Below are positions 20,318 through 46,459 of a stretch of 64,000 nucleotides of DNA, piece by piece. The stretch lies in contig OX030958.1 in assembly GCA_943735955.1 (NCBI GenBank), forward strand, positions 2,921,531 to 2,985,530, written 5' to 3'. Origin of the DNA: Piscicola geometra (Eukaryota; Annelida; Clitellata; Hirudinida; Piscicolidae). The number at the start of each line of letters is the position of its first letter. Position 1 is the stretch's first letter. The notes under the pieces are model-generated. The model saw nothing but the letters and a program-made list of their open reading frames with translations. It was not told the DNA's origin and searched no databases. A program made the translations under genes and the position numbers.

Positions 20318-20355
20318 GAAAATACGACGAACTGTGCCACAAAAAGAATTTTCAT
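20318..20355 (-). pseudogene. Orphan exon 1 of a sixth potato inhibitor I gene (PI-A)
   Basis: On the - strand the ATG at 20,355 opens MKILFVAQFVVF and two further bases, then the donor GTGAGT. Length class, phase 2 donor and hydrophobic leader are the same as exon 1 of the intact paralogues. It has the same TATA box upstream. Downstream exons are absent; the CR1 and LINE fragments at 16.7-20.3 kb occupy their place. It is presumably a remnant gene cut by LINE insertion. Confidence 0.75.
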
Positions 20356-20429
20356 ATTTGAAAAAATTTATTTTCCAAGTAAGTTTAACAAAAAGAAGTG
20401 ATTCAATTTCATCGCAAAATGCAGTTCAC

Positions 20430-20435
20430 TTTATA
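20430..20435 (-). promoter_or_regulatory. TATA box of PI-A
   Basis: TATAAA on the - strand, 75 bp upstream of the ATG of the orphan exon, in the context AGTATAAAGTGAACTGCAT. PI-B has almost the same context. Confidence 0.6.
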
Positions 20436-20990
20436 CTGATCGCAAGAATGCTGTTTTTGAGAAGTCGAACGCCTAGGCAAGTTAAAGTTCCTTCTCAGGT
20501 AGCACTAGAAAGATTGCATTGATTTTGAACCAGTATCCAATTTAAAAAATAGGCGTCATCAATGATATCGTGAAGCTTTAATCGAAAATCATGAATTGTG
20601 TAAAATTGAAGTCTTGTGCCAGAATTAGAGTTTATTTTCAAGTAGCATTACAGTTACGGACGTACGAAATGGAGTTATCTTGTTATTTTTAGTAACAGGG
20701 CTTTGAAAGAAAAATAACCAAGTATGAATAAAAGATTTTTCAAATCAGCCGACAACTAGACAAATGTATTTTTCACTTGTGTATTTTTGCATAAATTTAC
20801 TCAGTTATGATGAGCTTATCTTTTTAACATTAAATATTTATGAACTTTTCAATTTATTTAATTTTTGAAATAATTGTAAACGCATTTATTTTCAATTCAT
20901 TTATTTGAAAATCAAAACTCTAATAGATATAATAAGTGATTTTTCTAGTCATTTCAGGATGTCTGAGAAGCAATTATGTTTGCAATTGCT
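20436..20990. other. Spacer between PI-A and PI-B
   Basis: AT-rich spacer; includes the 3' flank of PI-B. I see no exon, TIR or tRNA-like box. Confidence 0.4.
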
Positions 20991-22719
20991 TTAGCCATAG
21001 TATGGCGTTTTCTTGACGTTGCCGTTCGAATCGAGAAACACCCGCACTCGATTGGATTGCCGTTCTAATGTCATAATTTTCATTGAGCCTTCAGGAACAA
21101 TCTGAACCTGTTTGTAATTTTAAAGAATAGTAATCTCTTCAAATTATTACTTTGAACTAAAGTTGTTATTACAATGTTTTTGTAATAAAAAATGCATACA
21201 ATGTTTAACAAGTTGTAACGAAAGTTTTAAATTATATTAAAAATTAATAAAATGTAGTCTCACATCTGCCTCAGGATCAGCTTCTTTAATTAACGCTTCA
21301 GCTTCTTCGCCCGTCTGAAGGCATTTAAATAGTTATTTCATTGTAGCTTCTCATTTATTAAATGAAATAATATGATTTTTAAGTTTAAGAAAAATACTTA
21401 AGAAATTTATATTTATTTTTAAAACCAACCTTTCCAACTGTCGCAGCAAAAGTCTGTTCAGTCTGAGTCGTTAATAAACAATTTTTAAATTTCACTGACC
21501 GACAAATAGAAAATGATTTCGCGTAAATGAAAAATGAATAGATGATTATGAAAACTTCTCAGATGAAATCAAACAGGTCAGTTATATTATTTTCTTTTAT
21601 AAATTAATACTTTGAATTTGAATTTATAATTTCCAGTTGATTGCTCAGTTGATCATTTCGACAAAAGAAAAGGTGCTCATTGATCTTATTCTAATGGCAG
21701 CATATCCGGGATAGAAAAATAAATGAATACTAAAACATTTTTTAGAGAAAATTGTATTTTGTACAGCTAGACCAAGCTGCAGTGCCATTTAGGAAAATAC
21801 AAACGTTTTTTTAAGAATTATTATGTTTGCTTTCATATCTTAAACTTATGATAAAATTTTTATACTATCAAATTATACAAATGATTTTATTTAAGCAGGC
21901 AACCAAAATGAAATCTTTATGCAGTTTTCACCAAATTTGATATTGGTCTACACTGACTCTTTGTAGTGAATTCACCACATACGTTACATCAGGAGAATGT
22001 TTACATTAACGCGATTGCCGATTCATTATGTATATATAAAATTTTTATTATAAATTAACAAAATAAATAATGCTTTTAGAAACTGATTTTGTCTTTATAA
22101 TCTTTAACTATATTTAACTATATTTTATTATTAATCAGTAAAAAGTAATATGTAAACAAATAATATTAGGATTTAAAAAAAGTTAAACTAAGATATATGA
22201 AAAGCGTGATGAAATCGAACATTTTCATTTCATTACAGCACAGAGCATCTTTTAAAACACACTAAATGACATACGATTTACAAAAATTTAGTTTTTGTAT
22301 GTTTACAAAAAATCTGTCAGCCAGTGTTATTAATCAGTAAAAAGTAATCCATAAATTAATAATATTAAAATTAAAAAATTAAAGTTCGTAACAAAATAAA
22401 TTATAAAATGGTTGAAGTATTTGATAAGTTAGTGAATAAACTTTAAAAGAAAACGATTTCACATTGGTCTTTTGTGATAACAAATACCTCTGATTTTTTC
22501 TTCAAATGTGCATCACATCTTTCCAATAAGGTTACTCTATCAAAAGGATAACTTGAATTTTATTGTTTTATTTAATTAATAATTGGCTAGACAAATATAT
22601 TTCAATCTGCTTTTAAATATTGATTATTAGACCATTTTTGAAATAATTAAGCTAGTGATGATAAATGAAACTACTAACGAAAAGACGATGAATATTGCCG
22701 TGAAGAGCTGACTTTTCAT
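20991..22719 (-). CDS. Secreted potato inhibitor I (eglin/CI-2) family protein PI-B
   Basis: Predicted secreted serine-protease inhibitor of MEROPS family I13. Exons on the - strand: 22,679-22,719; 22,488-22,536; 21,430-21,462; 21,264-21,314; 20,991-21,107. All are GT-AG, phases 2,0,0,0, giving 96 residues. Exons 1-2 give a signal peptide (MKSQLFTAIFIVF, likely cut after ERCDA). Exon 3 gives TFAATVGK, equivalent to the LVGKS turn of CI-2. Exon 4 gives the helix TGEEAEALIKEADPEAD. Exon 5 gives the strand-loop-strand VQIVPEG ... NRVRVFLDSNGNV and the C-terminal PYYG. By alignment to CI-2 the P1 residue is Leu (TL|E), and the loop is two residues longer than in its siblings. A hAT-A fragment (about 21.53-21.90 kb) sits in intron 2. 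Confidence 0.88.
21530..21900 (+). mobile_element. hAT-A internal fragment in PI-B intron 2
   Basis: GATTATGAAAACTTCTCAG onward matches 51,820-52,100 of the inner hAT-A copy, including CAGTTGATCATTTCGACAAA and GCTGCAGTGCCATT. It has no ends. It is a decayed relic that did not disrupt the exons. Confidence 0.7.
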
Positions 22720-22794
22720 TTTAGATAAGAGTTTATTTCAAATTACGATTCAAATAAAAGTGTAGATATATTTTCACCACTAAATGCAGCTCAC

Positions 22795-22800
22795 TTTATA
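22795..22800 (-). promoter_or_regulatory. TATA box of PI-B
   Basis: TATAAA on the - strand, 76 bp upstream of the PI-B ATG, followed by GTGAGCTGCATTTAG, nearly the same as at PI-A. Confidence 0.65.
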
Positions 22801-22964
22801 CTGATATTTCAAGGCATTGCCTGTATTCAATAAAAAATTAATTGACAATCAGAATTCAATTAAAACTTTAAAAGGTTTCACCAATAAAATATAATCAAGA
22901 CCTTCAGTCGAAGTTACTTTAATTAAATTTCCAGCAAGTTTTTTATTTTTATTTAAATGGTAAA

Positions 22965-23130
22965 TTCGTTGGTCCAGCAACTTAAAGGTCACCAGTTCGA
23001 ATTTCTGTTGAGCTAACCGCGAGCTTTCATTTACCTAGTGTATATGATGTGGTGTTTCACGACGTATGTCGCGTGAGTGGCGCCTCAGTTACGTGCTTTG
23101 GCGCATTATAATACGCATTCATCAATCATC
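22965..23130 (+). mobile_element. tRNA-derived SINE, family S2 (5' truncated)
   Basis: Starts within the tRNA-like head (TCGTTGGTCCAGCAACTTAAAG), keeps a B-box-like CCAGTTCGAATTTC, then the core with CCTAGTGTATATGAT and GAGTGGCGCCTCAG and the tail GGCGCATTATAATACGCA. A fuller copy is at 56.88 kb. Confidence 0.75.
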
Positions 23131-23762
23131 AATCAATCATCGAGCGGGCGCCGATAAGGAGCCGGAGACCTCATTTTTCGCGGCGCGACTAAATGACTCC
23201 AGAAATTTTTGCTCACCGCTTATGATTTAGGCTGGATGGCTTTAATCGTTGGCTGCCCTGGGTCGATGTATGCCGAGATTTTTGTCTGTATGACATTCTT
23301 GGTCAGCCAGGACGCTTTCGTGCTTTCATCTCGGACTTTTATAACAAATAGTGGTGTACAGGCTCATTCATTGGCATGCGAAAACAATTACTATTAAAAG
23401 CAAATTGTTGAATTCTGATCATTTTGCTGATGGGCTTGAGGCCTTTAATATTAAGTCGCTCGGGCCCGCCATTAACTAAGCCCTTAATATTTTGTTATAA
23501 AATTTACTTTTTTGACGTTTAAATATTTTAATGAATATTTTTTTATTTTGGATTAAATATTTTCGTACAATTTACAAATATTTCATGACTTTTCCATAAT
23601 ATTTTTCATATCAAAGGTCAAAAGACCTGCGGTGTTCGTACTCCCTAAACTATAGTTAGTTTCAATTTGTATACCGCAATTTGAGCCGAAATTGTGAAGT
23701 GAGCTTGCTAACTTTCTATCTTTGATTAAGGTTAATTTTTTATTCTGTTTGTTTGATAAGCG
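23131..23762. other. Unassigned repeat-like block and AT-rich spacer
   Basis: A GC-richer stretch at 23,140-23,340 follows the SINE; its base composition is unlike the surroundings and its frames are stop-broken, so it is probably old LINE debris. The remaining 400 bases are AT-rich and empty. Confidence 0.35.
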
Positions 23763-24290
23763 TAGAGGTCAGACAGGGTGCCCGTGGGACTCCCAAAAGA
23801 ACGGGAATGGGAATGATAGGCAAAATCTGGAACGGGTAGAATTGGGAACCAGAAATTAAACGGGAATTGGAATACATTCAAATTGGAAACGGAATCAACC
23901 GAAACAACATTTTTGGCATAAAAATAATTAATTAGATAAAAAATGATATTGGAATAATTTAAAAACATATGGTGGTCTTTATGAAATAAAAATTACAATA
24001 CATTTTGTTGTTGTTGAAGTTTAGGAGAATAATAATGTTGAAAACCCTTCTTTTTCTTAAGTCTTTGATGAATGAAGATGAAATTTTAGAAGAGGATAAA
24101 TTTTTAAAATATATAAAATTACGTCTTTAAAAAATTGAAGATTTGAAAGATGTTTTATTTTATTGGAGTAAAATGAGAAATGTTAAATAACTTTTAAGAA
24201 GTGTCAAAAAAATTGTTCGGTATATCTGCATGGTCTATTCCATTTGATTAGCATTTTTCCACATGTAGTCGTTTAACTTGAGACTGCACG
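23763..24290 (+). mobile_element. hAT-A fragment with left end
   Basis: Begins TAGAGGTCAGACAGGGTGCCC with the GGGAACGGGAAT subterminal words, then joins directly to the transposase C-terminal part (GATGTTTTATTTTATTGGAG at about 24,149, which reads DVLFYWSKM as in 52,254-52,565). Internal sequence has been lost and the right end is absent. Confidence 0.75.
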
Positions 24291-24379
24291 GGAAACCTCC
24301 CCTTGGGTAACTGCGAGAAATCAACTGGAAAATATATTTTTAAGATATTTGCAGAAATAAGTGGCGAAAAGTTATCATA

Positions 24380-24715
24380 AGCAAAAACGATGAAAAAAAT
24401 AAATTATTTTGTTAAAGAGCAAAAACCTTAATTCAAGCTAATTTGAGAAAGTTAATTGAAACTAATTATTTATATTTTCAAAATATTAAATAGTCAAATA
24501 TATAATTTTTTTAAACAAGTCGGTGCCTATGGTTAAATTGAATAATAATTCAATAAATCTAAAGCAAAAACGTTTAAAAAAAGTTAATTATTTTATTAAA
24601 GAGCAAACATCTAAATTCAAGCTAATTCGAGAAAGATGTGGCCATTAAAAACAATAATTTATATTTTACAAATATTAAATATTCCAAAATATATTTTTTT
24701 AGTTTTAAACAAGCA
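24380..24715. repeat. Imperfect direct duplication of about 130 bp
   Basis: AAGCAAAAACGATGAAAAAA...TTAAAGAGCAAAA...AATTCAAGCTAATTTGAG at 24,380-24,510 recurs in diverged form at 24,560-24,715. No ends or coding potential. Origin unknown. Confidence 0.5.
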
Positions 24716-25335
24716 AGTATCGAAATTTTGATCAATATACGACTCGCATTACGAGAGATATTGAAAAAGTATAAGGAAAAAGTTAGGCTCTCAAAGTCAG
24801 GTCCATGAAACGCATATTTATCAGGCCAACAGCGCTTTAGATAATTCTCCTAAAAGTTCAATTTGCTCGAGTTTAAAAGATGAGAAACTTTAGAACCAAT
24901 TGGAATATTTCAAAAATAAAACAGATTTATAACTTCCAAATCAAAACCTATTAAATGTATATTAATTTTAACAACTTTGTTAATTTCAAAAATCATGGTG
25001 GTTGCTTTGACTTGGTTAAGCATTAATTATTTCTGCTATTTTCATTTATAGTGACTTTTAAATATTTTTTAATTAAATATTATTATTATTTTAGAAGTCA
25101 AGATCTGCGTTGTTCAATCCCATAACCCAAATGTTCATTCACTTCTTCATCATCCTCATCGAGTTAGAATAGATAAGAGATCAACGGTCTTCTTTATTCA
25201 CTAAATTTCTCGAAAATCAATACGAAATTTGTGAAAACTAAAATAAACACTTTTTTCCATTTCATTAACTAAATAACTAATACTCAGCAAAAATTTATTT
25301 TGAGTTGTCTTTGTTTGATTCATTTCAAGCTTCGT
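24716..25335. other. AT-rich spacer and 3' flank of PI-C
   Basis: Nothing recognised. AATAAA on the - strand at 25,294-25,299, about 40 bp after the PI-C stop, is a candidate polyadenylation signal. Confidence 0.4.
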
Positions 25336-27105
25336 TCAACCATAGTGTGGCTCTGACACAACAACGCCATCCTCGTCGACAAAGACGCGCACTCTCTTTT
25401 GGCGAAGATCGTCAGTCACTGGAGAACCTTCCGGAAGAATATGAACCTGTGAACGAATGTTTCAAGTAAACCAGTAGTACTTTTATTCCAATTGAAATTA
25501 AAGTTTATTAATTGAAGTGTGTTTATATTAAAAGTATAATGATTTTTAAAAATTAAAAAAGTTCTGCTTTATATACAAACTGCTGAATGTATTAATGAAG
25601 TAACTTTTATCTATAATGATCATAATATTGATTATTCTAATTTAATGAACTCATTAAATGTATGTCTCACTTCTGCATCAGCATCATGCTCTTTAATGAA
25701 CTTTTCAGCTTCTTCGCCCGTCTGTATTAGTTTAAATAGTTCTTTCATTAAATCTTTATAGTTTCTAATTTTTTTTATTTCATGTTATGTGTTAATTTTC
25801 GAAAATAAAAGTAAGGTCAACCGAAACATCGAGGAACAATTCAGAGGCGGATTTTAAAATCTGCAGCCTCTGGGCTGTTAAAACAACTCCCCCCTTGGAC
25901 ACCGCTGTAGGATTCAAGCTTCATGCTCTCGGTCGCAAAACCAACCGCAATTTTAAAATTTTTTGAGCAATAAAATGTTACAATTTGTTAATAGTTCAAA
26001 TTTTCGTCTTTTAATGATAAATAAACAGTAAAAGCCTTGTTGTTAAAAATAATTTACTGGAAATATATCACATTTAAATATGTTCAAAAGTGTTTACTTT
26101 GCGCAGCTGCATCCGAAAATAAATGTATGATGTGATCATAGTTGATGTTTTTTGTCAAATCAGATTCAATCGATAAAACTGCATACCATTTCAAACTAGA
26201 TTAGATGCATTTTATACTTTTAACGTGAAATCCAGATAACAAATCATCCAACTAAATTTCTGAATAAATCATTGTTTCTAGTTTTTTAGTTGCCGAAGGT
26301 AACCCGAAGCTTGACTCTTTGAATTTGGATTTACATTCTTATCATCAAAACTAAAACATGATAGTCAAGATGTATAAAATAAAATACTTAAACCCCGATT
26401 ACATTTAATTTGTTTAAATGGTTTTATAAAATATTGTAAAAAAAACGTTGGATGTTGAACAAATAAATTTTAAAGTCAAAATTTGTTTTAATTTTGTTTA
26501 TGTGTTTTCGAAAGCTTCCTATAGCGCGGGGTTTGTTTTCATTTTTTTCACTAATTTACATTTTCCGTCTTTTTAAATCTGCCGCCCTGTGCTATAGCCC
26601 TTTAAGCCCGTGTGGAAATTCAGCTCTGCTCTTAGTTCGCACCAACCATTCCAACTGCATCAGCAAAATCGTCCTGTAGTTTGGTTGTTGAGGATTTAAT
26701 AAAGTTTTTGAGAAAGCTTCGATTGGGTTCTAGTACTTTATACATTTTAAATCGCAAGTTTCATTCTTTTAAATTATTTATTTTATTCATAAATTATTTT
26801 TTTGAGAATGAAGCTTTTATAATTCGTTATGAAGTTTTAAAGAAAATTAATTATCATCCGTATTCAATGGAATTCTTACATGAGGTGATGCATTGCATCT
26901 TTCCAATATTGCTACTCTGAGAAAAAAGAAGGTAATTTATGTTGGTAGAAATTTAATTCATGAATAATGAACAACATAACAATTCAGATAAGCTTTGATT
27001 GGTCTATATACTTTTATTATCCGAATCATGACTAATAATCTTATTAAAAAATTAAATAGCTCACGAAAAAACAAGAAGCAGTGCCGTAAAAATTAAAATT
27101 TTCAT
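25336..27105 (-). CDS. Secreted potato inhibitor I family protein PI-C, predicted P1 Asp
   Basis: Same five-exon plan as its neighbours. Exons on the - strand: 27,065-27,105; 26,880-26,916; 26,647-26,673; 25,671-25,721; 25,336-25,446, all GT-AG with phases 2,0,0,0, total 88 residues. Leader MKILIFTALLLVF plus SVAILERCNA, probable cleavage before SPH, leaving a mature chain near 65 residues, the size of CI-2. Then DDFADAVGM, the helix TGEEAEKFIKEHDADAE, the loop strand VHILPEGSPVTDDLRQKR, then VRVFVDEDG and PHYG. The P1 position aligned to Met in PI-E is Asp here (T-D|D-L), unusual for this family. The inhibitor fold is well supported; the target protease is unknown. Confidence 0.9.
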
Positions 27106-27160
27106 TTTTTACAAAAATAGTTTGCAAATGAATTATTTGAATTTCAAATTTTAACCTACT

Positions 27161-27166
27161 TTTATA
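27161..27166 (-). promoter_or_regulatory. TATA box of PI-C with shared upstream word
   Basis: TATAAA (in CGTATAAAAGTAGG) on the - strand, 56 bp upstream of the ATG. Immediately upstream is CATCTTTGAGTTC, also found in slightly altered form before the PI-E TATA box and partly before PI-F. Confidence 0.7.
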
Positions 27167-27249
27167 CGGAACTCAAAGATGCTGTTACTTAAAGTCTACT
27201 AAAAAGATCAAAGTTTATTCTTAACTTGAATAACAACTATTGCATTTTG

Positions 27250-28135
27250 TATATATGGGAGACCGGGGCAAGATGACGAGCCGAGCAAGATGAAGAATTT
27301 CTTATATTTTCAGTTTTTCACTAGTTGAAAGCATGAAACGAACACTACTGGCTCTTCTACTTTCCTTTCGTTAAATAATAGTATGCAAACGCTGAAACCT
27401 CTATTTTTGTTTTAGTTATGAAGCTTTAATTGTTTTCCACGGTCACGTTATAACTTTTATGCACATATAAATAAGCTTTGCTGCAGAATTAAGTAACCTA
27501 TTTCGTTTAAAACAAATATTTAATAGTAGTTCATTTATAATACTACCTATTAAAATAAATAGTTGTCAATTAGTTGACTTCATACCTGGCAATAAAAACG
27601 AAAGTTTGTAACTAAGCAGTTCGGGGCAAGATGGTCGCGGCAAGATGCTTGTCATCTTAACTCGTTTTTCAGAATTGTAAAAAACAAATATGAATATGAT
27701 TTTGAAGCTTTTGAGCTGCTTGAGCGTTATAAATTAATAAATTAACGCAAAGAATTAAAGATGTAAATTTTAGATAATTACGGATGTCTAGATTTTATCC
27801 TATTTTCATGATATTGAAATGTATTTAATTTAATTTAATATTTTTAAAAGGTTTGAACATTTTATTGATTTTTTTAACCACATAAAATATTCAAAAGATT
27901 TAAATTTTAGAATTTTTTCAGTGTTGTCATCTTGCCCCGGTACTAAGGCAAGATGAAAATTTAGTAGGGTTGTATTAAAATGAAATTATTCCTTAGTTAT
28001 ATTTATTTTTAAAAGTAAATGTGATATATTTATTACAAAAAATGAAATAGTTATAGTAAAAAAGTTTTTTATCTTTAAAAATAAAATAACAAAACGACGT
28101 AAATCTTTAACTAGGTCATCTTGCCTCTACTTAAA
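27250..28135. mobile_element. Decayed TIR element(s) with GGGGCAAGATGA ends
   Basis: GGGGCAAGATGACGAG near 27,256 and GGGGCAAGATGG near 27,623 face GTCATCTTGCCCC near 27,929 and GGTCATCTTGCCTC near 28,116. The inverted arms suggest one or two nested MITE-like elements. No coding capacity and no clear duplication, so the class is unknown. Confidence 0.45.
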
Positions 28136-28589
28136 ACCCTTTAAAAAGAATGATACCTCATAAATCAATCAAAAGCTCTTGAATCCAGAGTGAGCAAATC
28201 TTTAAAAGAATTTTATTAAAGCAAATATAAATGTCTTATTTGTTGCATTTAAAAGAATAATAAAAAATATATATATAAATTTTAAAGACTTTGACATTAA
28301 CTTAAAATATAAATCCAATTTTTTAAAGGGCTGAAAGAGAAAAAATTATATCAAAAATTATATCAAAAATTGCATTTAAAATAAATATTATTAAAAAAAA
28401 TTTTTTAAATTCATAATTTCATTTTACAATTTTCAAACAGTTTTTCTTTTTAACCTGCTTTTGTTCATAACAAACAATATCTATTTCAAAATTTGAAACT
28501 TCATATTTCATTAACCATAAAGATGTCAAAATCATTTTTTTTGAAAAACATAATTAACAATTATTTGACCTAGATTTGTAATCTAACAG
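28136..28589. other. AT-rich spacer
   Basis: Nothing recognised; long A/T runs, no TIRs, no exon-like stretch. Confidence 0.4.
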
Positions 28590-30546
28590 TAATACATGGT
28601 GAGTATGTTTAGTTATAGTGATAGCTGTCTAAAACAAAATTATTCTTTGCTTACTTAAATATTCCTTCACCTAGTTTTTTTATCACTATGGCGTAGGCGG
28701 GAATTCTGAAGGATCCTGGGGTTCACTTTTATTTTTTACTTTTTGCATGAAGCTCTGAATGTTAATGAACAGTTTTTTGGTTTATTCAGCCCACCAGACA
28801 CGATCGGAAAAACATTATCTGCTGTAGTAAAAGATGTTCTGATCAGAATTATGCTACCCATAGAAAAACTAAGAGCTCAGACTTATGACGGCGCTGCTAA
28901 CATGAACGGCCGATATAATGGTTGTCAGGCTATCATCAGCAGTGAGCATCTGCTTGCATTGTTTTCCCACTGCTCTACACACTGTGCACATCTTGTTACC
29001 CAGCACACAGCTGCCGCAAATCCCTTTGGGAGCAATTCACTTCAGTTTGTCCAAGAGTTAGGTGCTTTTTACAATCGTTCAGGGAAAGTCAAGAAGCAGT
29101 TTAGTGTTGCTTTAGTGTCTCTTATAATTGACTTTCCTGATGAGCCACTGAATAAGAAGTATAGTATAAAACTTCTTTGTCCTACAAGATGGCTGACCAG
29201 AGTATCTACAGTGTTTTCTGGGCTTGAACATTATGAAGTGGTACTTGTTAGCATGGAATCATTTGCTTCCATTGGTACTGCTGATGAAACAGCTGAAAGG
29301 CTTGAAGCCTTTTTTCAACAGGGCACTACCTCACTGGCCCTCAAGGTAGTTGTTTTGGTGTTTCCACTTCTGGAACAGTTAAACAAGTCGTTGCAGTCAG
29401 CAAGTGCCAAGGTCAGTGGAATGGTTGCAGCGACTGATTCAGTTGTGCAAGAACTGCGTCGCCTACGATCAGATGAACAGTTTAACGCCATTTTCAGAGA
29501 TGTCAACAGAATGGTTTTGGCATATGATCTCAAGCCGATTGCTGTACCTTGGGTGCGAAAGCCGTCACAAAAGTATTGTGGGCGGAGCCCAGCTTATGTA
29601 GCAACAACACCAGAGTAACATTATCGAGCAGCATATTACGCTGTCATAGACATTGCAATCATTCAACTCACAGAAAGGTTCAATCGAGATTCTCCTGGTT
29701 TGCGTTCATACTTGCAGCTGGAGACAATGTTGCTAACTGGTGAAGTGAACCATGATATTTGCAAGCAGTATCGTGAGTTAAATGAAACTGGTTTTTGTTC
29801 ACAGTTAACTATGTTTAAAGACCAGAATGAAATTTAGCACAAACGCAAAAAAAAATGCAAGCTATGATCACGGAAGTCAGACATCTGTTTCCTTAGGTTG
29901 AAAGATTGATCAGATTGTGTGTCCAATAACGTCATGTACTGCAGAAAGATCTTTTAGTGCTTGGCGGCGTCTTAAGACTTGGTTGCGTGCACCTATGACA
30001 CAGCTTCGCTTGAATTCACTGGCCGTTTGTCATGCACATCAGGATATACTTGACAGTTTGGATTTAAAAAGGCTAGTAGAAGAATTTGCTAGTCGGTCAG
30101 ACATTCGAAGGGGTCTTTTTGGAAATTGGAGTAAACGATCGGGGGAGAGAGAACAGGAGGACAAGCAGAGAGGGTATTTTATGTTATCTAAATATACACT
30201 GTGGGCCAAAAAAAAGTAATTATTGTACATTTGTTTATAACTTTGGCAAATTTGAATCTATTTATAAAATTTATTTGATGAAAAATAATAAAAAGTAGTA
30301 AAATCGCTAATGTTTTTATTCAAATCGCTCATAGTGGTAATAGAAAAGTATCTTTATTGAGTATCAAACTTTTTTTAAATGTTTGGTGATACAAATAATA
30401 GAAGTTGATACAAAAAACATTTACACTACAGCAAACAATACTAAATAGTATTGCTGTTACTGTATTGGCCGAAATCTGTTTTTTGATTCCTACCCTGGGG
30501 AAGACCCCCCCCCCCCCCCAAGATTTTCTGCAGATCGCCGCCCCTG
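28590..30546 (+). mobile_element. hAT-C copy 3, best preserved transposase
   Basis: 5' part truncated (joins at about 28,590, equivalent to 9320 in copy 1), 3' end GATCGCCGCCCCTG at 30,546. The frame 28,743-29,618 is open for 291 codons: NEQFFGLFSPPDTIGKTL, then TYDGAANMNGRYNG, THCAHLVTQH, LLCPTRWLTR and EQLNKSLQSASAKVSGMVAA, all typical of DUF4371/ZMYM1-like hAT transposases. A single stop at 29,616 then separates it from the rest. The hATC part with CTAERSFSAWRRLKTWLR is at 29,936-29,991. The N-terminal zinc finger is missing. Confidence 0.85.
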
Positions 30547-31079
30547 CTTATTCGTAACTTTTCAAAGGCTGCGTGTTTCTTTTTTTATGATTAATGTTGA
30601 GCAAGCCGTTTTACGAGAGCATAGGAATAAAACGCAATGACCAAAAAGTTCCATGAACATTAAGTTTAAATAAATTAAAATTTTTCATTAACAAGTTGAT
30701 GATCAATTTAAGAATATTCAATATTCAAAAGTAGTCTTCACTGAAGCCCATTCTTGCATAGCATTACAAGCTAAAAAAACATGTACTCACGAAACTGCCC
30801 TCCATTTCTTCTCATACGAATCTGAGATGAAAGTAAGAAAACTTTCTGCAGACTAAGGATGTCATATAGAGAAATAATATCGATCCAGGACGGCCAACGC
30901 ATGATTACAATACAATTCAATAAATTATTAACGTGGCGCGAGCCCGAAAGAGCTTCAAAACTACTTAAGTACTAATAAAATACTTTCAAAAAGGTATACA
31001 AAAAATCAAATAAATAAATAATAATACAGTTACTACCACTCATCACCATCATTCACCACACATTCCGACCATCCCCGCA
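30547..31079. other. Spacer with one exon-like stretch
   Basis: Mostly AT-rich. On the - strand near 30,790-30,825 a short stretch is bounded by TCTCAG and GTGAGT and reads IRMRRNGGQF; it has no partner exon, so I do not call a gene. Confidence 0.3.
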
Positions 31080-34540: not shown

Positions 34541-34559
34541 TTTCAACCAAGAAAGATTG

Positions 34560-35750: not shown

Positions 35751-35797
35751 AGAAATATGCACTTCAGAAGAAGGTCCAGCTTATGTAATTCGTTTTA

Positions 35798-35865: not shown

Positions 35866-36109
35866 TGAAGCAGTAAATGATTAAACAGATTATCCAATGG
35901 TTAAGAATTGCCACATCATTAGACCTCCGATTGAAAAATTTAAAATATTTACAAAAAATTAAAGAGTTAAAGAAACTATTTAAAAAAACTTCAGAAACTA
36001 CACAGCCTTTACCAAACAAAAGACTGCAAACATATTTAACTTCAGATTTTGAAGATTACTTTGTGAATCCTTAAACGTTATAGAACAGAATCTGAGGTAT
36101 GCTTTGAGA

Positions 36110-37021: not shown

Positions 37022-37311
37022 ACATTTTGATAAGCTAAATAAAAATAATAAATTTGAAAAATACATTTTAAAGTGCCTACCAAAGATTCTGTCACGGCCT
37101 TAAGTCGACCAGTTAAATTCATTAGCCGAAAGCTGTGGAAAAAGAATCCTACATACATCTTATCTGCGCTGCCTCGATGAGGATGATAATGAATATTACA
37201 CTTAGTTTCAAATTAGCGTTTTCATATTTCTCCGTAAAACACGGACACCGATTTAATTCATTTACTGAAACTCAACAACTTCGGGAAAAAGTTTAGATAG
37301 CTTTATTCCAT
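37022..37311. other. Spacer, 3' flank of PI-D
   Basis: No exon-like stretch; a possible AATAAA on the - strand lies just after the PI-D stop at about 37,302. Confidence 0.4.
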
Positions 37312-38402
37312 TCAACCATAGACTGGCGGTTTCACAACGATGTCACTGTCATCGACGAAAACTCGAATTCTTTGAATATCCAAGTCCTCCAGCACAGGGG
37401 CATCTTGTGGCAGAATCACCACCTAGAAACGAATTGATCAAGTTACTTTTAATTTCAATTTTTATCTAATCAACCAATAAAATCTGATATTTCTCGAACA
37501 CTTCGTCTCAGCATTTGAAAAGCCTATTAAGGTAATATTATTAGTAATAATTGTTAATAATTATTGGTAATAAATATTGGTAATAATTGGTAATAATTAT
37601 TGCCACCATAATATTGGTCATTCTTATTGTTGTTATTATTATGTTTTGTATATATATTTAAAGTTTGTTTAATAACTCATTTTCCATTAATATCTAACGT
37701 CGGCTTCCGGGTTCTCTTTCAGAATGTATTCCTTGGCTTCAGCGCTGGTCTGCAGGCGTTTTAAAGCAGCTCTCAAATGCAGTCATTTCTTAATAAAAAA
37801 GAAATACAACAACGTTTTTAGTATTGTTTTTGAAATTTTGTCAAAATTAAGGTTTTGTTTAATTACAAACTTAAAATGTCTCAAACCATTCCAACTATTT
37901 CCGAAAAAGCGGCTGGTGGTTCCTTTTTGGGTGAACAGACGTAATATAAAATATTTATCAAAATTTTCATTTTTGCCATTTATAATAAAATAATTAAAAC
38001 TTTAAGTTTTCGAAAAGTTTTATCCGATACCTTTATAAATACATATCTGAAACTAAATTCACTGACTCTTTGAATTTTTAATTAGTTTATAAAAATTTGA
38101 TGAAAGAAGGTTTAAAATATGTTTTTCATTGAAATTCTCACTTCATGAACATCAGGGCAGTGAGAATCCTGGCCATAAATTGGACTGCAACTTTCTGATA
38201 TTGCCACTCTGAACGTGAACAAAGTTCATAATGTTGTCTTTGAAAACAAGAAGTCTTCTTAAACTATAATAACAGTTTATTTTCTCTTGAAAATATAAAT
38301 TTCTACGTTTTAAAAACCATTATGTTCTAATCAAATCATTATTATTGTACAATTAACTCACAAAAAAACAATGAACAGCGCCGTGATGAAAAGGACTTTC
38401 AT
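37312..38402 (-). CDS. Secreted potato inhibitor I family protein PI-D, predicted P1 Glu, extra cysteines
   Basis: Exons on the - strand: 38,362-38,402; 38,142-38,208; 37,887-37,922; 37,699-37,749; 37,312-37,422; phases 2,0,0,0; 101 residues. Leader MKVLFITALFIVF. Exon 2 is longer than in its paralogues (22 whole codons against 12-16) and adds SESCSPIYGQDSHCPDVHE with two cysteines nine residues apart. Exon 3 EPPAAFSEIVGM, exon 4 helix TSAEAKEYILKENPEAD, exon 5 VVILPQDAPVLEDLDIQRIR, VFVDDSD and C-terminal VYG. Alignment puts Glu at P1 (L-E|D-L). The helix and the PEAD...V strand are very close to plant CI-2. The two cysteines may form a small N-terminal disulphide loop, which CI-2 and eglin lack. 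Confidence 0.9.
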
Positions 38403-38474
38403 GCTGGAAATAATTATTTTATTACTTTAAACCTAGATTCAAGCTTCATAATTTAAAGCGTGTTTTCTATTTGT

Positions 38475-38480
38475 TTTATA
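38475..38480 (-). promoter_or_regulatory. TATA box of PI-D
   Basis: TATAAA (CCCTATAAAACA) on the - strand, 73 bp upstream of the PI-D ATG, preceded by CTTTAGTTC, similar to the PI-C upstream word. Confidence 0.65.
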
Positions 38481-38890
38481 GGGAACTAAAGCTTCAAAGT
38501 CCAAAAAAATATTAAAGTTTATTCAGATTTGCATTGAAATAAATAAAATGTAAAAAATATGTTTAAATAATCACTCTCAATAAAGTTAATTTGCAGCCCT
38601 AGAACGAAATTATGATAAATTGAATTATTAGAATTAAAATATTCAAAACTCGCTCCCCTGACACGCTTGTAGACACTCTCCGTGTGTCAGCACAAAGACT
38701 TTGGACCAGAAGGAATCCTGCACCTGGAGAAGAAGCTAAATGTCTTATTTTTTAGCGATTAATGTTATACGATGTATTAGATGGGAATGAAATGTTTCAC
38801 CCAGGAAATTTCATAAATGGATTCAAACAGAAATTCAAAACTAAAATCAACTAATAAAATTGATTATCAATTCAAGAATATTCATCATCT
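38481..38890. other. Spacer
   Basis: AT-rich except for a GC-richer stretch at 38,650-38,740 with no clear reading frame. Nothing recognised. Confidence 0.35.
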
Positions 38891-38894
38891 CCTG

Positions 38895-40560
38895 GTTTTT
38901 GTTAAACAGACCAACTTTTCCTCTCCCGAGGGTAGGGCCTGTCTGAAAAATCTCAATCACTCTCTCCACTCCTTTCTGTCATGGGCATCAGTGTTGCATG
39001 CCCCCAGGTATTTGAAGTCTTTCTGCACTTTCTCTTCCCACGTCTTCTTTGGCCCACTTGGTCATTTCGTTCCAGAAACCTTCTTTCTTCTAATCTTGTT
39101 GATCCATCCACCATCACGTTCCACATGCCCAAACCACCTCATTCTTCTCGCTTGCAGTACAGCACCAATATCCTGGATTCCCATCATTTTTTGGAGCTCA
39201 TCTGAACTGATGAGATTTGTTGATTTGATGTTGCACATCCAACATGTCATGGCCCGGTCATTGCGTTGAAGGTGGTTGATTGTTTCTGTGGTGACAGCCC
39301 AAGTCTCAGAGGCGTGTAACACATGAGGTGTACACACAACTTCTGGTTGGAAGTGGAAGATTTCTGTTTGTCAGTAGAGAAAGAAGTTGGCGAAATTTTC
39401 CCCACGCACACTTGTATCGGGTTATGGCAGCATCCTCACAGCCTCCACCTGCAGACAGCATGTCACCTAAGTAGCAGAATTCAGAAACGACTTCAAGTTT
39501 GTCTTCATCGACAAGAACTTCCACAATTGGTCTTCCGTCTATCGGTCGAGCTGTGCCTTGACAGCGGGCACACTTGTAATTTGGGTCTGAGCGGAAAGAG
39601 CCTTTAATGTCTGAGCATCTCTTGTGCACCTAGAATGAACAACCGCTTCATAGAATGGAGTTTTTGCCCGTTCCTTTAAGGCAGACTGCACATGGGTACT
39701 TTACCGATTTTTTGGTCAGCTCTAGATTCGCACCTAATACTAGAACTTTCGTTTTCCCCATATTAACTTTTAAGCCCTTTTTCTCCATTCCATTCTTCCA
39801 TATCTTGACCTTAACAAGCAGCTCGTTCAGTGATTCAGCTATTGCTACAAAATCATCTGCGTACAACAGCTCCCATGGACAACCAGTGCGAAACTCAATG
39901 AATAACGCTTCTAGCACGATGATGAATAATAGAGGGCTTAGGACTGAACCTTGATGGACCCCGACGCCCCCTTCGAACTCGTCACTGAAAGCTTCACCAA
40001 CCTTTACCTTGCTTTTCACCTCCGAATACATAGACTGCACCACTCTCACCAGCCACTCCTCGATACCGAGTTTACGTAATGCCCACCATATCACCTTCCT
40101 TGGGACACGGTCAAACGCCTTCTCAAGGTCGACGAAAGCTAAATAGAGTGGTTTGTTGGCAGCCCGGTACTTTTCCTGGATCTGACAGATGATGCAGATG
40201 GCATCTGTTGTTCCACGCCCTGGCATAAAGCCAAACTGCATCTCGTCAATCTTCGCACGGGTCCTGATCAGGCCTTCTATCACGCGCTCCAGTACTTTGA
40301 GTACTTGCTCTATCAGCTTCAAGCCCCTGTAGTTGTTCCTGTCGAGAGCATCTCCTTTCCCCTTGTAGAGGTTCACAATAAAACTCTTTTTCCATTCAGT
40401 GGGGATCTTCCCTTTTGAGATGATGCACTCAGCAAGATCAGGTACTAGGATGGCACCCTGTAGACCAGCAGACTTGAGCATCTTAGCAGCAATGCCGGAC
40501 GAGCCAGCTGCCTTGCCATTACTCATCTTTGCAATATTCAAAATCAAAACTCTAACATCT
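38895..40560 (-). mobile_element. LINE with reverse transcriptase and embedded Cys-rich finger
   Basis: On the - strand, 40,547-39,648 is open for 299 codons of reverse transcriptase: NGKAAGSSGIAAKML, NNYRGLKLIEQVLKVLERV, FMPGRGTTDAI, LAFVDLEKAFDRVPR, GVHQGSVLSPLL, LLYADDFVAI. It runs on into a Cys-rich segment (CAVCLKGTGKNSI, then in the next frame HKRCSDIKGSF and YKCARCQG) that looks like a PHD-type zinc finger, followed by PIDGRPIVEV, CYLGDML, ASETWAVT and RRMRWFGHVERDGGW. This is a LINE protein with a PHD-like finger between polymerase and C-terminus. A frameshift near 39,640 and 5' truncation inactivate it. Confidence 0.88.
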
Positions 40561-41058
40561 CATGGCTGCCCGTCCATTCACAGCATTACAACTCTCTAAA
40601 GGAAAAGAGCAGAAATAAAAATTAATGAAACCATTATGAAAACTTTTATCAAGAAATAGTTCTAAATATTGAAGACTCCTAAGTTTTACTAATTAAAAAA
40701 TGCTTAGTAATACTGCTTGTAAACTATAAAAAAATAGTTATAGTAGTTTTAGTTTCAAAAAGAAATAGACAATAAAAAATAACTTGACTAAGATATAAAA
40801 ATATAATTTAAAAGATATGAAATTGAAACTATTGAATACTTTTTTTAAACACCAAAAGACTTTTATAGTTTTAATTAACTTTCAAACGAATTTTCCATTT
40901 ATTTATTTGTCTAGTTAAATCGTATAGAGTCAAAAAATAAACAAAATTACATTTTTATCATTTTATTAACTAAATAACTAATATTCTAGAAAAGTTGCAA
41001 TAAGTAAGCCAAAGGAATCGATTTGAGTTGTCTTTGTTTGATTCCTTTCAAGCTTCGT
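40561..41058. other. AT-rich spacer, 3' flank of PI-E
   Basis: Nothing recognised apart from AATAAA-like words on the - strand shortly after the PI-E stop. Confidence 0.4.
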
Positions 41059-41998
41059 TCAACCATAGTGTGGCTCTTCCACAACAACGCCATGCTCGTC
41101 GACAAAGACGCGCACTCTCTTTTCACGGTAATCCATTGTCACTGGAGATCCTTGAGGAAGAATATGAACCTGGGAACGAATTTATCAAGTGAACTAGTAT
41201 TTTTATTAGAAATAAAATTGAACTGTTACATTACGTTTTTTCTAAATTTAAGAGTATGATGTTTTTAAATTTATTTGTTAAAAACATATCAATGAATTGA
41301 CTTGTTTATATAAGGATAAAAAAATTGACTATTCTAATTTAATGAACTCTCTATTATTGTCTCACTTCTGCATCAGCATCATGCTCTTTAATAAACTTTT
41401 CAGCTTCTTCGCTCGTCTGTTGTCGTTTTAATATTTTTTTTTAAAGCTTTTTAGTTTCTAAATTGTTATATTATATTATGTGTTAATTATTTGAAAAAGA
41501 AATAAATGTCAACCGAAACATCGAGCCCTTATTTCGCACCAACCATTCCAACTGTATCTTCAAAATCTTCCTGTAGTTTGGTTGTTGAGGATTTATTATA
41601 TTTTTCTAGAAAACTCCGATTATGTTCTAGTACGATATAAATTTTAAATTATAAGTTTAATTATTTAAATTAGTTTTTTGGGATTTATATAAAAATATTT
41701 CATTTCAAATTAAGGTTTATAAATCGTTCTTTTTTATAAATTTCATTTATATTCAATGAAATACTTACATGATGTGATGCATTGCATCTTTCCAATATTG
41801 CTACTCTGAGGAATAAAGAGGGTAACTTGTGCTGGTATAGTTTTTGATTCATGAATAATAGACCTAAAAATAAAAAAGTTCTAATTTGCTTTGATAGGTC
41901 TATACATTTTTATTTTTGAATCATTGACGAATACTCTTATTAAAAACGACAACTCACGAAAAGATAAGGAGCAGTGCCGTAAAAACCAAAGTTCTCAT
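41059..41998 (-). CDS. Secreted potato inhibitor I family protein PI-E, predicted P1 Met
   Basis: Exons on the - strand: 41,958-41,998; 41,769-41,805; 41,544-41,570; 41,366-41,416; 41,059-41,169; phases 2,0,0,0; 88 residues. Leader MRTLVFTALLLIF and VAILERCNA, likely mature from SHH. Then EDFEDTVGM, TSEEAEKFIKEHDADAE, and VHILPQGSPVTMDYREKR, VRVFVDEHG, PHYG. The loop VTMDYREKRVRVF is the closest in the array to CI-2 (VTMEYRIDRVRLF), with Met at P1 and the Arg pair that anchors the loop. PI-C is its closest sibling: exon 4 and the leader differ by a few residues only. It is the shortest locus (940 bp) and apparently intact. Confidence 0.92.
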
Positions 41999-42063
41999 TT
42001 CCTTGGAAATAGTTTTTAAACGATTTATATGAAAAAGTTTCAAATTTAATCTTTCAATCCACT

Positions 42064-42069
42064 TTTATA
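42064..42069 (-). promoter_or_regulatory. TATA box of PI-E with shared upstream word
   Basis: TATAAA (CGTATAAAAGTGG) on the - strand, 66 bp upstream of the ATG, preceded by CATCTTTTGAGCTT, the same arrangement as at PI-C. Confidence 0.7.
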
Positions 42070-42119
42070 CGAAGCTCAAAAGATGATGTTATTTTGGAGT
42101 TTAATTCGAAGGTTAAAGT

Positions 42120-43010
42120 TTACTTTTCAATTGCATCAGAGTACAGTTAAACAATAGCGAAAATCGTTAAGCGTTAACCTATTAGAAACACGTTAATTTC
42201 ATTAACCGTTATTTAGTTAACTTTTTATTATTTTAGGAGAAAATATAATCAACTTGAGAACATTAATGACATTCTAATTTACTGTTCTAAAAATAATTAG
42301 AATAAAATATGGTTTATAGGTGGCTCAATGGCCTTTTATTGACACTAAAAAAACACTACACTTTCATTTAAGGTTTTGTCTAAGAAACATGTGCTTTTTA
42401 TTGGATGAATATGGGAAAATAGTCCCAAACAACCTGTGTAGTTTTATGACAGTAAACTAGAATTTCATTCGGCACACGCAAAATTTACTAATTCAGGTCA
42501 ATGTTAAAATAAACAGCCTTAGATGAGACCATGGTTTCTAAGGTTTAGTTGAAGTCATGGCGAACAACTATTTATGTCGGTCAATGCAATTTTTTCATTT
42601 GACAATGTTTATTGTTTTAAAAATCACCATTTCACAGTTTTATCGATTAATTTTAACATACAAATGTTTATTTAAAATTTAATTTGTTTAATATAATGAC
42701 AAACACACAAATATTTTAAAATAATAAACAGTATTTTTTAATTTATAATTCTCATGAATGTCTCATAAACGACTTTAGCAATGGTTTCAGAAACAAAAAC
42801 AGTAAGTGTAAAATAAGTAGTTTTTCAAGCTGAAAAGAATCTATTTTCTTTAATACTGATTACGAAATTATTAATAAAAGTATACTTCAACGGAAGTACA
42901 TTAGTTCGTTAGTATATTTCGAAATTAATTTAAAAGTTGAATTTTTAACGGAAAAATTAACTTCGTTAACAACGGTTCAGAACCCAGATTCGCATCATAG
43001 TTATTACATT
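42120..43010. mobile_element. Possible decayed hAT with AACGTTAAC-rich ends
   Basis: GTTAAGCGTTAACC and ATTAACCGTTATTTAG near 42,155-42,220 face AACGGAAAAATTAACTTCG and GTTAACAACGG near 42,947-42,977. This subterminal style is that of hAT-F at 35.3 and 49.0 kb. No ends or duplication could be fixed, and no transposase is seen. Confidence 0.3.
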
Positions 43011-43621
43011 AATAAAAATTGAAAAATAGAAGCAATGATCATAAATGATAATCATCAGAAACCTTTGACTCGAGAGTGAGGAAACCTTAAAAAGAATTTT
43101 TCACAGTATATTCAAATATCTGAATGGATGCTTTATACTTATGTTTACAAACTCTTTTTTTTTCAACGTGCCTAAATAAAAAGAGTATAAAAATAATTAA
43201 TTAAAACAATAAGAAATTTTTGTAATATAAAAAATTAATTAGGTTTTCGATTACTATATAATTTTTTTTCCAACTAGCTCTAAATCATAACAAACAAAAC
43301 CTTTTGAAAAATTTAAAAATTTTAAACTTTGTACTTAATCATAAAGATGTCAAAAGTATTTTTCTTTAAAACATAATAAACCATTACTTGAACTAGATTT
43401 GCACTATAATGGCGTTGAATTTAAAAAGAATTATATTTAAAATGGAAAAATTTTTTAATTAATTAATGATAAAAAAGATTTTCTAAAATCTCATTTTTGA
43501 TATGTCTTTAACTTTTATTATAGAAAACAAATTTGAATAAAGCATCTTGAAACATTTTTACTTATTTCACATTAGTTATCATATTTAAGATAAACTTTGG
43601 ATTAAACTTTTTTTTGTCTAT
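43011..43621. other. AT-rich spacer
   Basis: Nothing recognised. Confidence 0.35.
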
Positions 43622-43842
43622 ATCGTTCACAGCCTGGCAGACGCAGGCTATGTTACAATGGTTCTCATGCGCCAGAGACTTCACTCCAAGCGACGTACAC
43701 ATCTCTCAATGCATACGTTGCTAACACCGCATCATATACACTAGGTATATGATAGTTCACGGTTGCTTGTCAGGGATTCGAACAGGCAACCTTTGAGTTG
43801 CAAGTCCAACGTCTACCATCTAAGCCATCCCTGCTCCCCTTG
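43622..43842 (-). mobile_element. tRNA-derived SINE, family S1, antisense
   Basis: Reverse complement of the SINE at 32,964: the head GGGGAGCAGGGATGGCTTAG lies at the right edge, with core CATATACCTAGTGTATATGA and the tail CATAGCCTGCGTCTGCC at the left. Confidence 0.8.
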
Positions 43843-44159
43843 TAGTTTTATCCTTAAATGTAAATTTTCACAAGCTGTATGTTTCTCCTTTGAATGATTA
43901 CCGTAAAATATCAATATATTCGCACACTTATAAATAAATAAAAATTCTAAATTATGAAAATATAAAAGTTTTCTCTCTATTCATAGTCAAATTTAAAAAA
44001 TCATAATATTGTTCAAATTCAGTTATATGTATTATTATTGTCACCATATTTACCACCAAAAACATTTTTGTTTTCATATTTTATCTCTAAACTAAGGACT
44101 CAAAAAGCAATTATTGTTGCAAAAAACGAAAGTGTCTGAATGTTTCGAGTGTCCAAAAT

Positions 44160-45130
44160 CTGATATTTTACGGTAGTTTTTCCACTACTTTTTCTCATTC
44201 TATCTAGAAGGTAGTAATTCATTATGCTTCTCTTGGCAAGTTGAGTTTTCTGATTAGACCATTTTATTCATCCTGGTTAAAACTTTGAAGAATTTATGAC
44301 ATTCTTTCATAGCCACCATCACCTTCATTAGTATCAGTTAAAACATCAAAAAAAGCTCTTATTTAATTATTTCTTGTAGTGGGTGAAAAGTTGCTATTGG
44401 CACTTTTTCTGAATGAGGAACCAGGCGTCTAGCATAAAATTAATCGGGATAGGTCCACTTACTATGGTTATTTTGTTTGATTTCAATAATGTTGACAAGG
44501 AAAACAAACAACTTAAAAAATGGATTTTAGTTTTTCTCGAAAAAATTTTTTAATAGTCTATATTACTCACAGCCTGACAGAATGCAGGCCATGTTACACA
44601 TGTTCCATGGTTCTTATGCGCCAAAACGCCACTCCAACGACGTACATTTTTTTCAACGCATACGTCGCTAACACCGCATCATATACACTAGATATATACA
44701 CATCATATACACTAGGTATATATGATAGTTCACGGTTGCTTGTCAGAGATTCGAACTAGCGACCTTTAAGTCGCAAGTCTGACGTCTACCATCTAAGCCA
44801 TCCCCGCTCCCCTGGTATACCATATTTCAAAATATTTCTTTTTTCCAGTGGTTCACTGTTGTAAATGTTTTTCACACATTTTACAAATCCAATGTGGTGC
44901 CCAGGTTTCATCTTTATCACAGGGTTTAACACCAAAGTTACCAAAATAAGCTTTCTTTAAAAAATCATTAGCTGTTTATCTGTTTTTTTTCAGTGTATTC
45001 TCACAAATATAGAAAAACATGCCAAGAATATTTAAAAAACCTTTTCTACTTGAACTCATTTTGCTTACTATTTACAAATAAAAATATAAAAACTTTGAAA
45101 ACTATATTTCAATTTTATTACAAGAAATAT
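44160..45130 (-). mobile_element. Decayed unclassified transposon ORF, copy 1
   Basis: Interrupted by an S1 SINE at 44,556-44,815. On the - strand, fragments in several frames spell a pattern (LNQDELN..IRKLNLPREA..LLASRL-like) that I know as the start of an unnamed transposon-associated protein frequent in arthropod and other invertebrate genomes. The same sequence recurs at 53.53-54.53 kb. Recognition comes from memory of a recurring ORF, not from a characterised family. Confidence 0.4.
44556..44815 (-). mobile_element. tRNA-derived SINE, family S1, antisense, with small internal duplication
   Basis: Same family as 32,964 and 43,622. The core word CATATACACTAGATATATAC is duplicated (44,678-44,723) relative to the other copies. 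The head GGGGAGCGGGGATGGCTTAG is at the right edge and is intact in both boxes. Confidence 0.8.
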
Positions 45131-45629
45131 AAAGATTTCTAATGCGCAGAGCTATTAAATATTTGAAAATATCGAGTAAAAGCAGCAGATTAAAATGCAA
45201 ATTATCTATAAAAAAAAGTAAAGCTGATGGGAGAGAGCTGATTTTATATTCGAATTCAGCATCTCAAATACAGATAAATCAGTTTTTAAGTTCTAGACAC
45301 CTGAAAAACTTTTTTTGTTAGTCTGTTTAATGCTTGTAAGCTGAAACATTTTAGTTTTAATAAGAAATACACATTAGAAAAATAATTAACTAAGATACAA
45401 TGAGATAAGTTAGTAGATGTAAAATTGAACTATAAAAACGCTAAATTAAATCAGAAATCGTTTTTGTTGATTAAAAACCAAATACTTTTATGCTTTATTA
45501 ACTTATTAATGTTTTAAGCAATAATTTTTTGTCGAAATTATTGTTTCGTCTACATAAAACTTCAAAGTAAGAAAAGTGTTTCCATTTATTTCTTTGTTTC
45601 CTTAAATCGTTTGGAGTTTATTAGAGAAA
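45131..45629. other. AT-rich spacer, 3' flank of PI-F
   Basis: Nothing recognised apart from the end of the transposon relic at the left. Confidence 0.4.
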
Positions 45630-46459
45630 TTATCCAAAAACTGGTTCTCGCACAACGATGTCGCTTTCATCAACGTAGATCCTGATTCTGCCGGGGTCGT
45701 AATCCAGGCTGACTGGGTCCTTGATCACGATAGTCTGTGTGTGAGTCAAATGTGGACTTCTACAGTTTAATCAATGAATTTCATAAAATTTCAATTTAAA
45801 AATAGATTATTTAATCATTTCATCATGGAAATTAAAAGATAATATTTTGACAGTTTATAAACTTATACATAGATAAGCTTACACGGATGCCTGGAAATAT
45901 TCCTTGGATGAGTGCAATGGCTTCATCGCCTGTCTGAACAGAAGAAGTGGAATATTGCATGGATATTGCATGTTTTTATTTCCCTATATCTAGCTTTAAA
46001 ATAGGGGAATAGGTATAAAAGATTTTAAACTTTTCCAATTGCTTCTTTGAAGTCGTGGTAGGGCTTTGGAAGAAAAAATATCCGTTGATTAATTTAAAAT
46101 GAATGTATAAATCGAACAATATATAATATTTTATTAATTAATTAGAAATGTAAAAAGTTTTCAAATTAAACAACTCATAAAAATGTTAATATAGTAATAA
46201 ATAAACGTTTTAAAATTTATTTTGAAGTATTTTGTCTAATGACGATTCATATAATGATTAATTACTTGCGAAGTGGCTAATGACTTTTCCACCAGTACAA
46301 CTCTTCAATGAATAAAGACAATTTCGATTTTGAAAGAGTTTTCATATTTTTTGTCAGTTTATATTTTTGAATGTTTTTATTTGAAAAAAACAACAATCTA
46401 AACCATTTGAATACTTACGCAACGATAAGACACAGTGCAGATAAAAACAAAAGCTTCAT
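45630..46459 (-). CDS. Secreted potato inhibitor I family protein PI-F, predicted P1 Leu
   Basis: Exons on the - strand: 46,419-46,459; 46,266-46,302; 46,031-46,063; 45,883-45,933; 45,630-45,734; phases 2,0,0,0; 88 residues. Leader MKLLFLSALCLIV then AVVLVEKSLA, probable cleavage before TSQ. Then PYHDFKEAIGK, TGDEAIALIQGIFPGIR, and TIVIKDPVSLDYDPGRIRIY, VDESDIVV and PVFG. The nonprime side of the loop is two residues shorter than in PI-C/D/E; the P1 position is Leu (S-L|D-Y). PI-F is the most divergent member: no cysteine after the leader region, and an IFPGI helix end in place of PEAD. It is the outermost gene of the array at the high-coordinate side. Confidence 0.9.

Follow-up and report, generated by a model that had tools for sequence, protein, structure and literature searches.

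The stretch of DNA analyzed here, referred to as the window, comprises 64,000 nucleotides of the fish leech Piscicola geometra (C4:2921531-2985530, where C4 is contig OX030958.1), and was compared with the whole genome sequence (171.02 Mb in 66 contigs). Between positions 20318 and 46459 of the window, on the minus strand, lie five complete five-exon genes of the eglin/CI-2 type, members of the potato inhibitor I family (MEROPS I13, PF00280), together with one orphan exon 1. This inventory was obtained by an independent rebuild. It agrees with the original prediction, which was made from the window alone and proposed five genes and an orphan exon with a common plan of five exons, intron phases 2,0,0,0 and an exon 4 of 51 nt. 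The limits of the interval are also exact, as the first gene, g45, starts with its ATG at 46459 and the orphan exon ends at 20318.

Models were anchored on PF00280 matches to exon 5, which fall at 20994, 25339, 37315, 41062 and 45633 and all lie on the minus strand. From these anchors, 51-nt exons between AG and GT were placed, followed by exons 3, 2 and 1. The five genes, named by their position in kb within the window, have exons of 41, 37-67, 27-36, 51 and 105-117 nt. Phases of 2,0,0,0 and a 51-nt exon 4 recur in every gene, GT-AG borders flank all 20 introns, and the stop codon immediately follows the codon for a terminal glycine in each case. Introns measure 97-276 nt, except for intron 3 of g25 (925 nt) and intron 2 of g20 (1025 nt).

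The gene g45 (45630-46459; exons 46459-46419, 46302-46266, 46063-46031, 45933-45883 and, with the stop codon, 45734-45630) would encode 88 residues. It has the loop VSL-DY (the hyphen separates P1 from P1'), has two residues fewer ahead of the loop, and scores 35.4 bits against PF00280. An upstream acceptor for its exon 5 was dropped because it would not keep the RIRIYVD strand in frame. Its neighbor g41 (41059-41998; exons 41998-41958, 41805-41769, 41570-41544, 41416-41366 and 41169-41059) also specifies 88 residues, with the loop VTM-DY and a score of 63.8 bits; an alternative exon 2 (SIIHESK...) was discarded, as group members back VAILERCNASxH. The longest product, of 101 residues, is predicted from g37 (37312-38402; exons 38402-38362, 38208-38142, 37922-37887, 37749-37699 and 37422-37312), which has the loop VLE-DL with an acidic P1 and scores 64.6 bits. 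An acidic P1 is likewise found in g25 (25336-27105; exons 27105-27065, 26916-26880, 26673-26647, 25721-25671 and 25446-25336), with 88 residues, the loop VTD-DL, a score of 61.4 bits, and copies at C4:3.40 Mb and on C10. The last gene, g20 (20991-22719; exons 22719-22679, 22536-22488, 21462-21430, 21314-21264 and 21107-20991), would encode 96 residues with the loop MTL-ER, which is preceded by two extra residues; it scores 49.1 bits and its exon 5 is hyperdivergent.

The orphan exon 1 (20318-20355, minus strand) reads MKILFVAQFVVF plus TC, followed by the donor GTGAGT, and its 5' flank is recognizable to about position 20605. No exons beyond exon 1 were found for it. Over 291 nt, the exon and 250 nt of its 5' flank match the 5' end of L010, a complete paralog located outside the window, at 91.4% identity; the exon is therefore regarded as a true relic. 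A reverse-transcriptase frame on the minus strand (19887-20264; RVT_1, 45.7 bits) lies directly past it, so a retroelement insertion probably severed the remaining exons.

The window contains only part of the family. Genome-wide, at least 16 places score above the PF00280 cut-off, and eight of these are packed into roughly 93 kb of the window and its vicinity; the probability that a given 93-kb interval would by chance hold eight or more of 17 places (the weak place C4:6246850 included) is about 1e-21. Three plus-strand genes with the same exon plan lie beside the window and point toward its minus-strand genes: L009 (C4:2918k, loop VTL-D), L010 (C4:2880k) and L011 (C4:2874k). While the original prediction was right that all genes in the window are on the minus strand, this does not hold for the cluster; the predicted array consists of real genes, but forms half of a larger cluster whose genes run in both directions, and dispersed copies add to it. 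Five of these copies were modelled, namely L012 (C4:3402k), L013 (C4:11165k), L014 (C17:15k), L015a (C10:4865k) and L015b (C10:4868k), the last with a broken frame. Exon 4 is 51 nt long in 12 of the 13 models, and all 52 introns have GT-AG borders.

Four further places, three of them on C11, were left unmodelled. An inverted pair of PF00280 exons (L016, C11:3409000-3416000) has the loops SPCTMD and SPCTRD with cysteine at P3 and seems to represent a second lineage within the inhibitor family; SPCTRD also occurs in two metagenomic relatives, P0002 and P0005. The place at C4:6246850 is weak (E 0.011). An exon-3-like relic with a stop codon (L030:865-978) is found 1.8 kb past L010, and searches for more exons in L031, L032, L033 and the remainder of L009 found none at E 0.01.

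Family assignment and reactive-site residues

Potato inhibitor I proteins are recognized by an acidic P1' in the reactive loop, an RxR pair behind the loop, and a C-terminal glycine. The loop enters the active site of a serine protease in a substrate-like manner, with P1 occupying the S1 pocket and setting the target, while the core arginines brace the loop, which makes its cleavage very slow. As the original prediction had proposed, the five spliced products were scanned with PF00280, and all exceeded the curated cut-off of 24.5 bits (35.4-64.6 bits); the same is true of all seven products scanned among the 13 models. When three products were compared with PDB, L009, g37 and g20 matched CI-2 and eglin c chains, with best E values of 3.6e-10, 1.3e-8 and 4.3e-7, respectively, and barley CI-2 as the top match of all three. 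The predicted family is hence confirmed. The genes are considered eglin-type genes of a fish leech on the basis of this match and of the source organism, eglin being a leech protein. A query with g25 against 5.8 billion proteins returned five short relatives with uninformative names.

The expected residues are present. Across 13 aligned exon 5 sequences (13 of the 17 known places), the RxR pair, one aspartate and one valine are invariant. All five window genes have an acidic P1', as read from the alignment, and end in glycine. By reading, cysteine is absent from exons 3 and 5 of all 13 models and from exon 4 of the 12 in which it is intact. Exons 1 and 2 are hydrophobic and signal-like in all 13, as judged by eye from the translations; the original prediction had correctly read a signal-like start in these exons and the reactive loop in exon 5.

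The residues that contact the protease differ between paralogs. P2 is threonine in g41, g25 and g20, serine in g45, and leucine in g37. P1, as read from alignments, is leucine in g45 and g20, methionine in g41, glutamate in g37, and aspartate in g25; outside the window, it is leucine in L009, L013 and L014, alanine in L010, L011 and L015b, aspartate in L012, and tyrosine in L015a. For g20, the register MTL-E with two residues inserted ahead is fixed by the alignment to CI-2, which has an M-E loop. Judged from these residues, leucine, methionine and tyrosine suggest chymotrypsin-like targets and alanine elastase-like ones, whereas aspartate and glutamate suggest either enzymes specific for acidic residues or loss of the usual activity. 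Some plant member of the potato inhibitor I family inhibits a Glu-specific protease; our literature searches did not bring one up. Likewise, a search on P1 of leech eglins found nothing on an acidic P1 in the portions of the literature available to it.

Duplication, conversion and divergence of exon 5

Several rounds of copying are visible. A block holding g25 and g20 (20670-28587) is repeated in inverted orientation on C10 with both genes, and partly at C4:3.40 Mb with g25 only. Its long pieces are 82.7-88.8% identical to C10 and 84.4-91.2% identical to C4:3.40 Mb. The copies retain their introns, which identifies the process as DNA duplication instead of retrocopying. Within the window, g25 and g41 are 72-82% identical in introns and 83-97% in exons (exon 2, 97%; exon 4, 96%), as would be expected of older tandem relatives. 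By contrast in age, L013 and L014, whose two matching pieces (6.3 kb in total) show 99.0% and 98.6% identity, are regarded as products of a very recent inter-chromosomal duplication. The pair L010 and L011 is identical at all 114 sites of exon 5 and 95-96% identical in the 3' flank, while the other exons (73-80%) and introns (58-70%) have diverged; exon 5 of this pair is therefore interpreted as a conversion tract.

The divergence of exon 5 was compared with intron divergence (K) in 10 gene pairs, with p values uncorrected for multiple testing. The 250-nt 3' flank is homologous within the g20 group; it is unsuitable where homology ends about 100 nt out, as in L009-L013 and in g25-group comparisons that involve L012 or g41. 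A yardstick including the flank made those exons look over-conserved, so intron-only values are used there.

Exon 5 is constrained in the g25 group. Its dN is below intron K in all six pairs, with dN/K of 0.12-0.36 in five of them (p of 0.034 or less); the sixth, L012-L015a, gives 0.79 (p=0.81). Between g25 and g41, 15 of 111 sites differ in exon 5 versus 54 of 196 in intron 4 (p=0.0045). Despite this constraint, P1 is tyrosine in L015a and aspartate in g25 and L012. For L009-L013, dN/K is 1.34, with p=0.22 for all introns, 0.032 for intron 4 alone, and 1 when the 3' flank is included in the yardstick.

The opposite is seen in the g20 subgroup, where the exon encoding the reactive loop has diverged faster than the surrounding non-coding DNA. 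Against introns only, g20-L015b gives dN 0.421, dS 0.202, K 0.113 and dN/K 3.7 (p=1.7e-6), g20-L011 gives dN 0.260, dS 0.390, K 0.115 and dN/K 2.3 (p=0.006), and L011-L015b gives dN 0.247, dS 0.210, K 0.126 and dN/K 2.0 (p=0.03); the three pairs have genes in common and are not independent. With the 3' flank added, K for g20-L015b is 0.094 (p=4e-8), and the differences in this pair amount to 31 of 111 sites in exon 5, 15 of 249 in the 3' flank, and 29 of 156 in intron 4. After removal of CpG columns, exon 5 was set against intron 4 and the 3' flank combined, with p=0.0008 for g20-L015b, 0.036 for g20-L011 and 0.16 for L011-L015b. Against intron 4 alone, the values are 0.076, 0.0017 and 0.76, respectively. 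The broken frame of L015b is insufficient to explain its excess, since a copy that is merely decaying should diverge at the neutral rate and no faster.

The loop exon of this subgroup is under selection, conversion or both, and three related genes cannot tell these apart. Gene conversion by an unsampled diverged copy, as opposed to selection on point changes, is close to an even prospect. Conversion has left a clear tract in L010 and L011, synonymous sites are also raised in g20-L011 (8.2 of 26.8, p=0.006), and in g20-L015b intron 4 is itself raised, so that the contrast of exon 5 with that intron alone weakens as given above. Set against this, no donor was found, since none of the other 12 exon 5 sequences compared exceeds 77% identity to that of g20, and in g20-L015b dN is twice dS with a non-significant synonymous excess (p=0.09).

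Interpretation and relation to known eglins

The locus is very probably a cluster of potato-inhibitor-I genes of the leech eglin kind that has diversified in the following manner. Exons 1 and 2 would encode a signal peptide, and exons 3 to 5 a cysteine-free CI-2/eglin domain with its entire reactive loop in exon 5. Gene number would have been raised by tandem and segmental DNA duplication. Paralogs may then have come to bind different proteases through changes of P1, with fast change of exon 5 in one subgroup and exon 5 conversion elsewhere. If spliced as modelled, the genes would yield secreted inhibitors whose targets may be host or gut proteases encountered during or after feeding on fish. 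We hold more tentatively, as a possibility on the doubtful side, that specificity has been re-targeted through rapid change and conversion of this one exon to cover chymotrypsin-, elastase- and Asp/Glu-specific serine proteases from fish hosts or from gut bacteria, and that exon 5 of the g20 group is under positive selection.

Several observations weigh against this interpretation. Splice sites in all models were placed by comparing paralogs. Exon 4 of L015b is 49 nt long and breaks the frame, L013 and L014 terminate in VIHN and do not end in glycine, and the unmodelled place at C11:4296307 (L017) carries a TAG and lacks the second arginine of RxR. The products of g37 (P2 leucine, P1 glutamate) and of g25 and L012 (P1 aspartate) may be poor inhibitors of chymotrypsin, elastase and subtilisin. 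Close orthology to eglin c is also in question, as L009 has 23 of 51 residues (45%) in common with it by our own alignment count. In addition, the hirudin profile PF00713 gave no match, although the control was likewise without one.

The proteins might instead control the leech's own body or gut proteases, which we consider unlikely. In Hirudo, eglin genes are not differentially expressed between salivary cells and muscle in the data available from that study (PMC7191736). Signal-like starts in all 13 models point outward, as do the signal peptides and antithrombotic roles that authors give to eglins of other leeches in the text available; a role inside the leech is still compatible with both. 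That the cluster is mostly non-functional, with the frames of duplicates intact merely because they are recent, is very improbable: the broken L015b, the altered ends of L013 and L014, the orphan exon, the exon 3 relic after L010 and the lack of demonstrable constraint in L012-L015a would fit it, but all five window genes are intact across four splice junctions, and g25 and g41 differ less in exon 5 than in intron 4 and retain near-identical exons 2 and 4.

A multi-gene leech eglin family is not in itself new. The original prediction implied that a secreted array of this kind was novel, but the genome is that of a leech, and published leech eglin families of 2 to 11 copies have signal peptides. 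According to the portions of these papers available, Hirudo medicinalis has seven eglin copies on six scaffolds (PMC7303139), Hirudinaria manillensis has four, by the paper's wording on a single chromosome, which are 83-88% identical to eglin c (PMC10671345), and three Whitmania species have 11, 5 and 2, while 7 of 15 Whitmania eglins retain their reactive residues (PMC11897028). The text of the last paper, supplements aside, does not contain the words exon, intron or selection. Clusters and exon-intron structures have been noted for blood-meal genes of Hirudo in general (PMC7191736), and Kvist and colleagues describe eglins as mainly under purifying selection (PMC3631404), both as given in the accessible parts of these sources. 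A salivary transcriptome of another piscicolid, Pontobdella macrothela, is cited in the available text of PMC7303139 and may report eglins. Within the literature open to the searches, no paper was found on eglin genes of Piscicola, and none on fish-leech salivary transcriptomes.

The P. geometra cluster differs from these families in several respects. It belongs to a piscicolid lineage, has loops two residues longer or shorter, and comprises eight genes in 93 kb in two orientations, with conversion and hyperdivergence of exon 5; several copies per genome with signal peptides (here signal-like by reading) are common to all. With Hirudo medicinalis eglin c (PDB 1acb, 4h4f and others), the proteins have in common the I13/PF00280 family, an inhibitor domain free of cysteine, the GSPVTxD loop and the RxR core, and L009 retains the VTL-D loop; in contrast to eglin c, P1 varies among the paralogs. 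Barley CI-2 (PDB 2ci2, 7aon), the top PDB sequence match of the three products compared, is a remote plant relative, yet its M-E loop parallels L-E in g20. A further parallel is accelerated segment switch in exons (ASSET) of snake venom genes (PMC2711939), where, in the part of that work available, target-binding exon segments change while the remainder is stable; other protein families are involved there, and P. geometra adds conversion between paralogs.

These results carry the leech eglin family into a piscicolid genome and supply exact gene models that include the first four exons (27-67 nt), which scans for open reading frames miss. The P1 series and the exon 5 pattern are of modest added interest. 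A series that includes acidic P1 residues on an eglin scaffold, combined with exon 5 divergence, makes an arms race between the leech and proteases of its host or gut bacteria testable, and natural loop-length variants are on offer for inhibitor work.

Neighboring elements and other loci

Transposable elements are interspersed with the genes. Reverse-transcriptase frames occur on the minus strand between or beside the eglin genes at 17922-18773 (RVT_1, 74.3 bits) and 39648-40559 (105 bits); by our own reading, these and the frame beside the orphan exon appear to be of LINE type. Remnants resembling hAT transposases are present at 28586-30547 and 14598-14936, with matches to DUF4371 (28 and 24 bits) and the hAT dimerization domain (18.4 bits) that are all below cut-off. 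The former lies 1.5 kb upstream of g25, and fragments belonging to its family are found near g25, L012, L015 and L013/L014. Among 544 first-look candidates for this family, 40 copies reached a score of at least 94%. Because it is very common, its adjacency to eglin copies proves little, and the element was rejected as a mover of the genes. A separate hAT remnant at 52206-52565 on the plus strand holds a C-terminal dimerization domain (27.9 bits, cut-off 21.4).

Elsewhere in the window, the end of a proline/histidine-rich frame on the plus strand (2723-3433) gives a weak WD40 match (22.2 bits, cut-off 27) and is possibly an exon of a WD-repeat gene. Leeches are rich in the antistasin family, and 43 antistasin-domain places are present in this genome.

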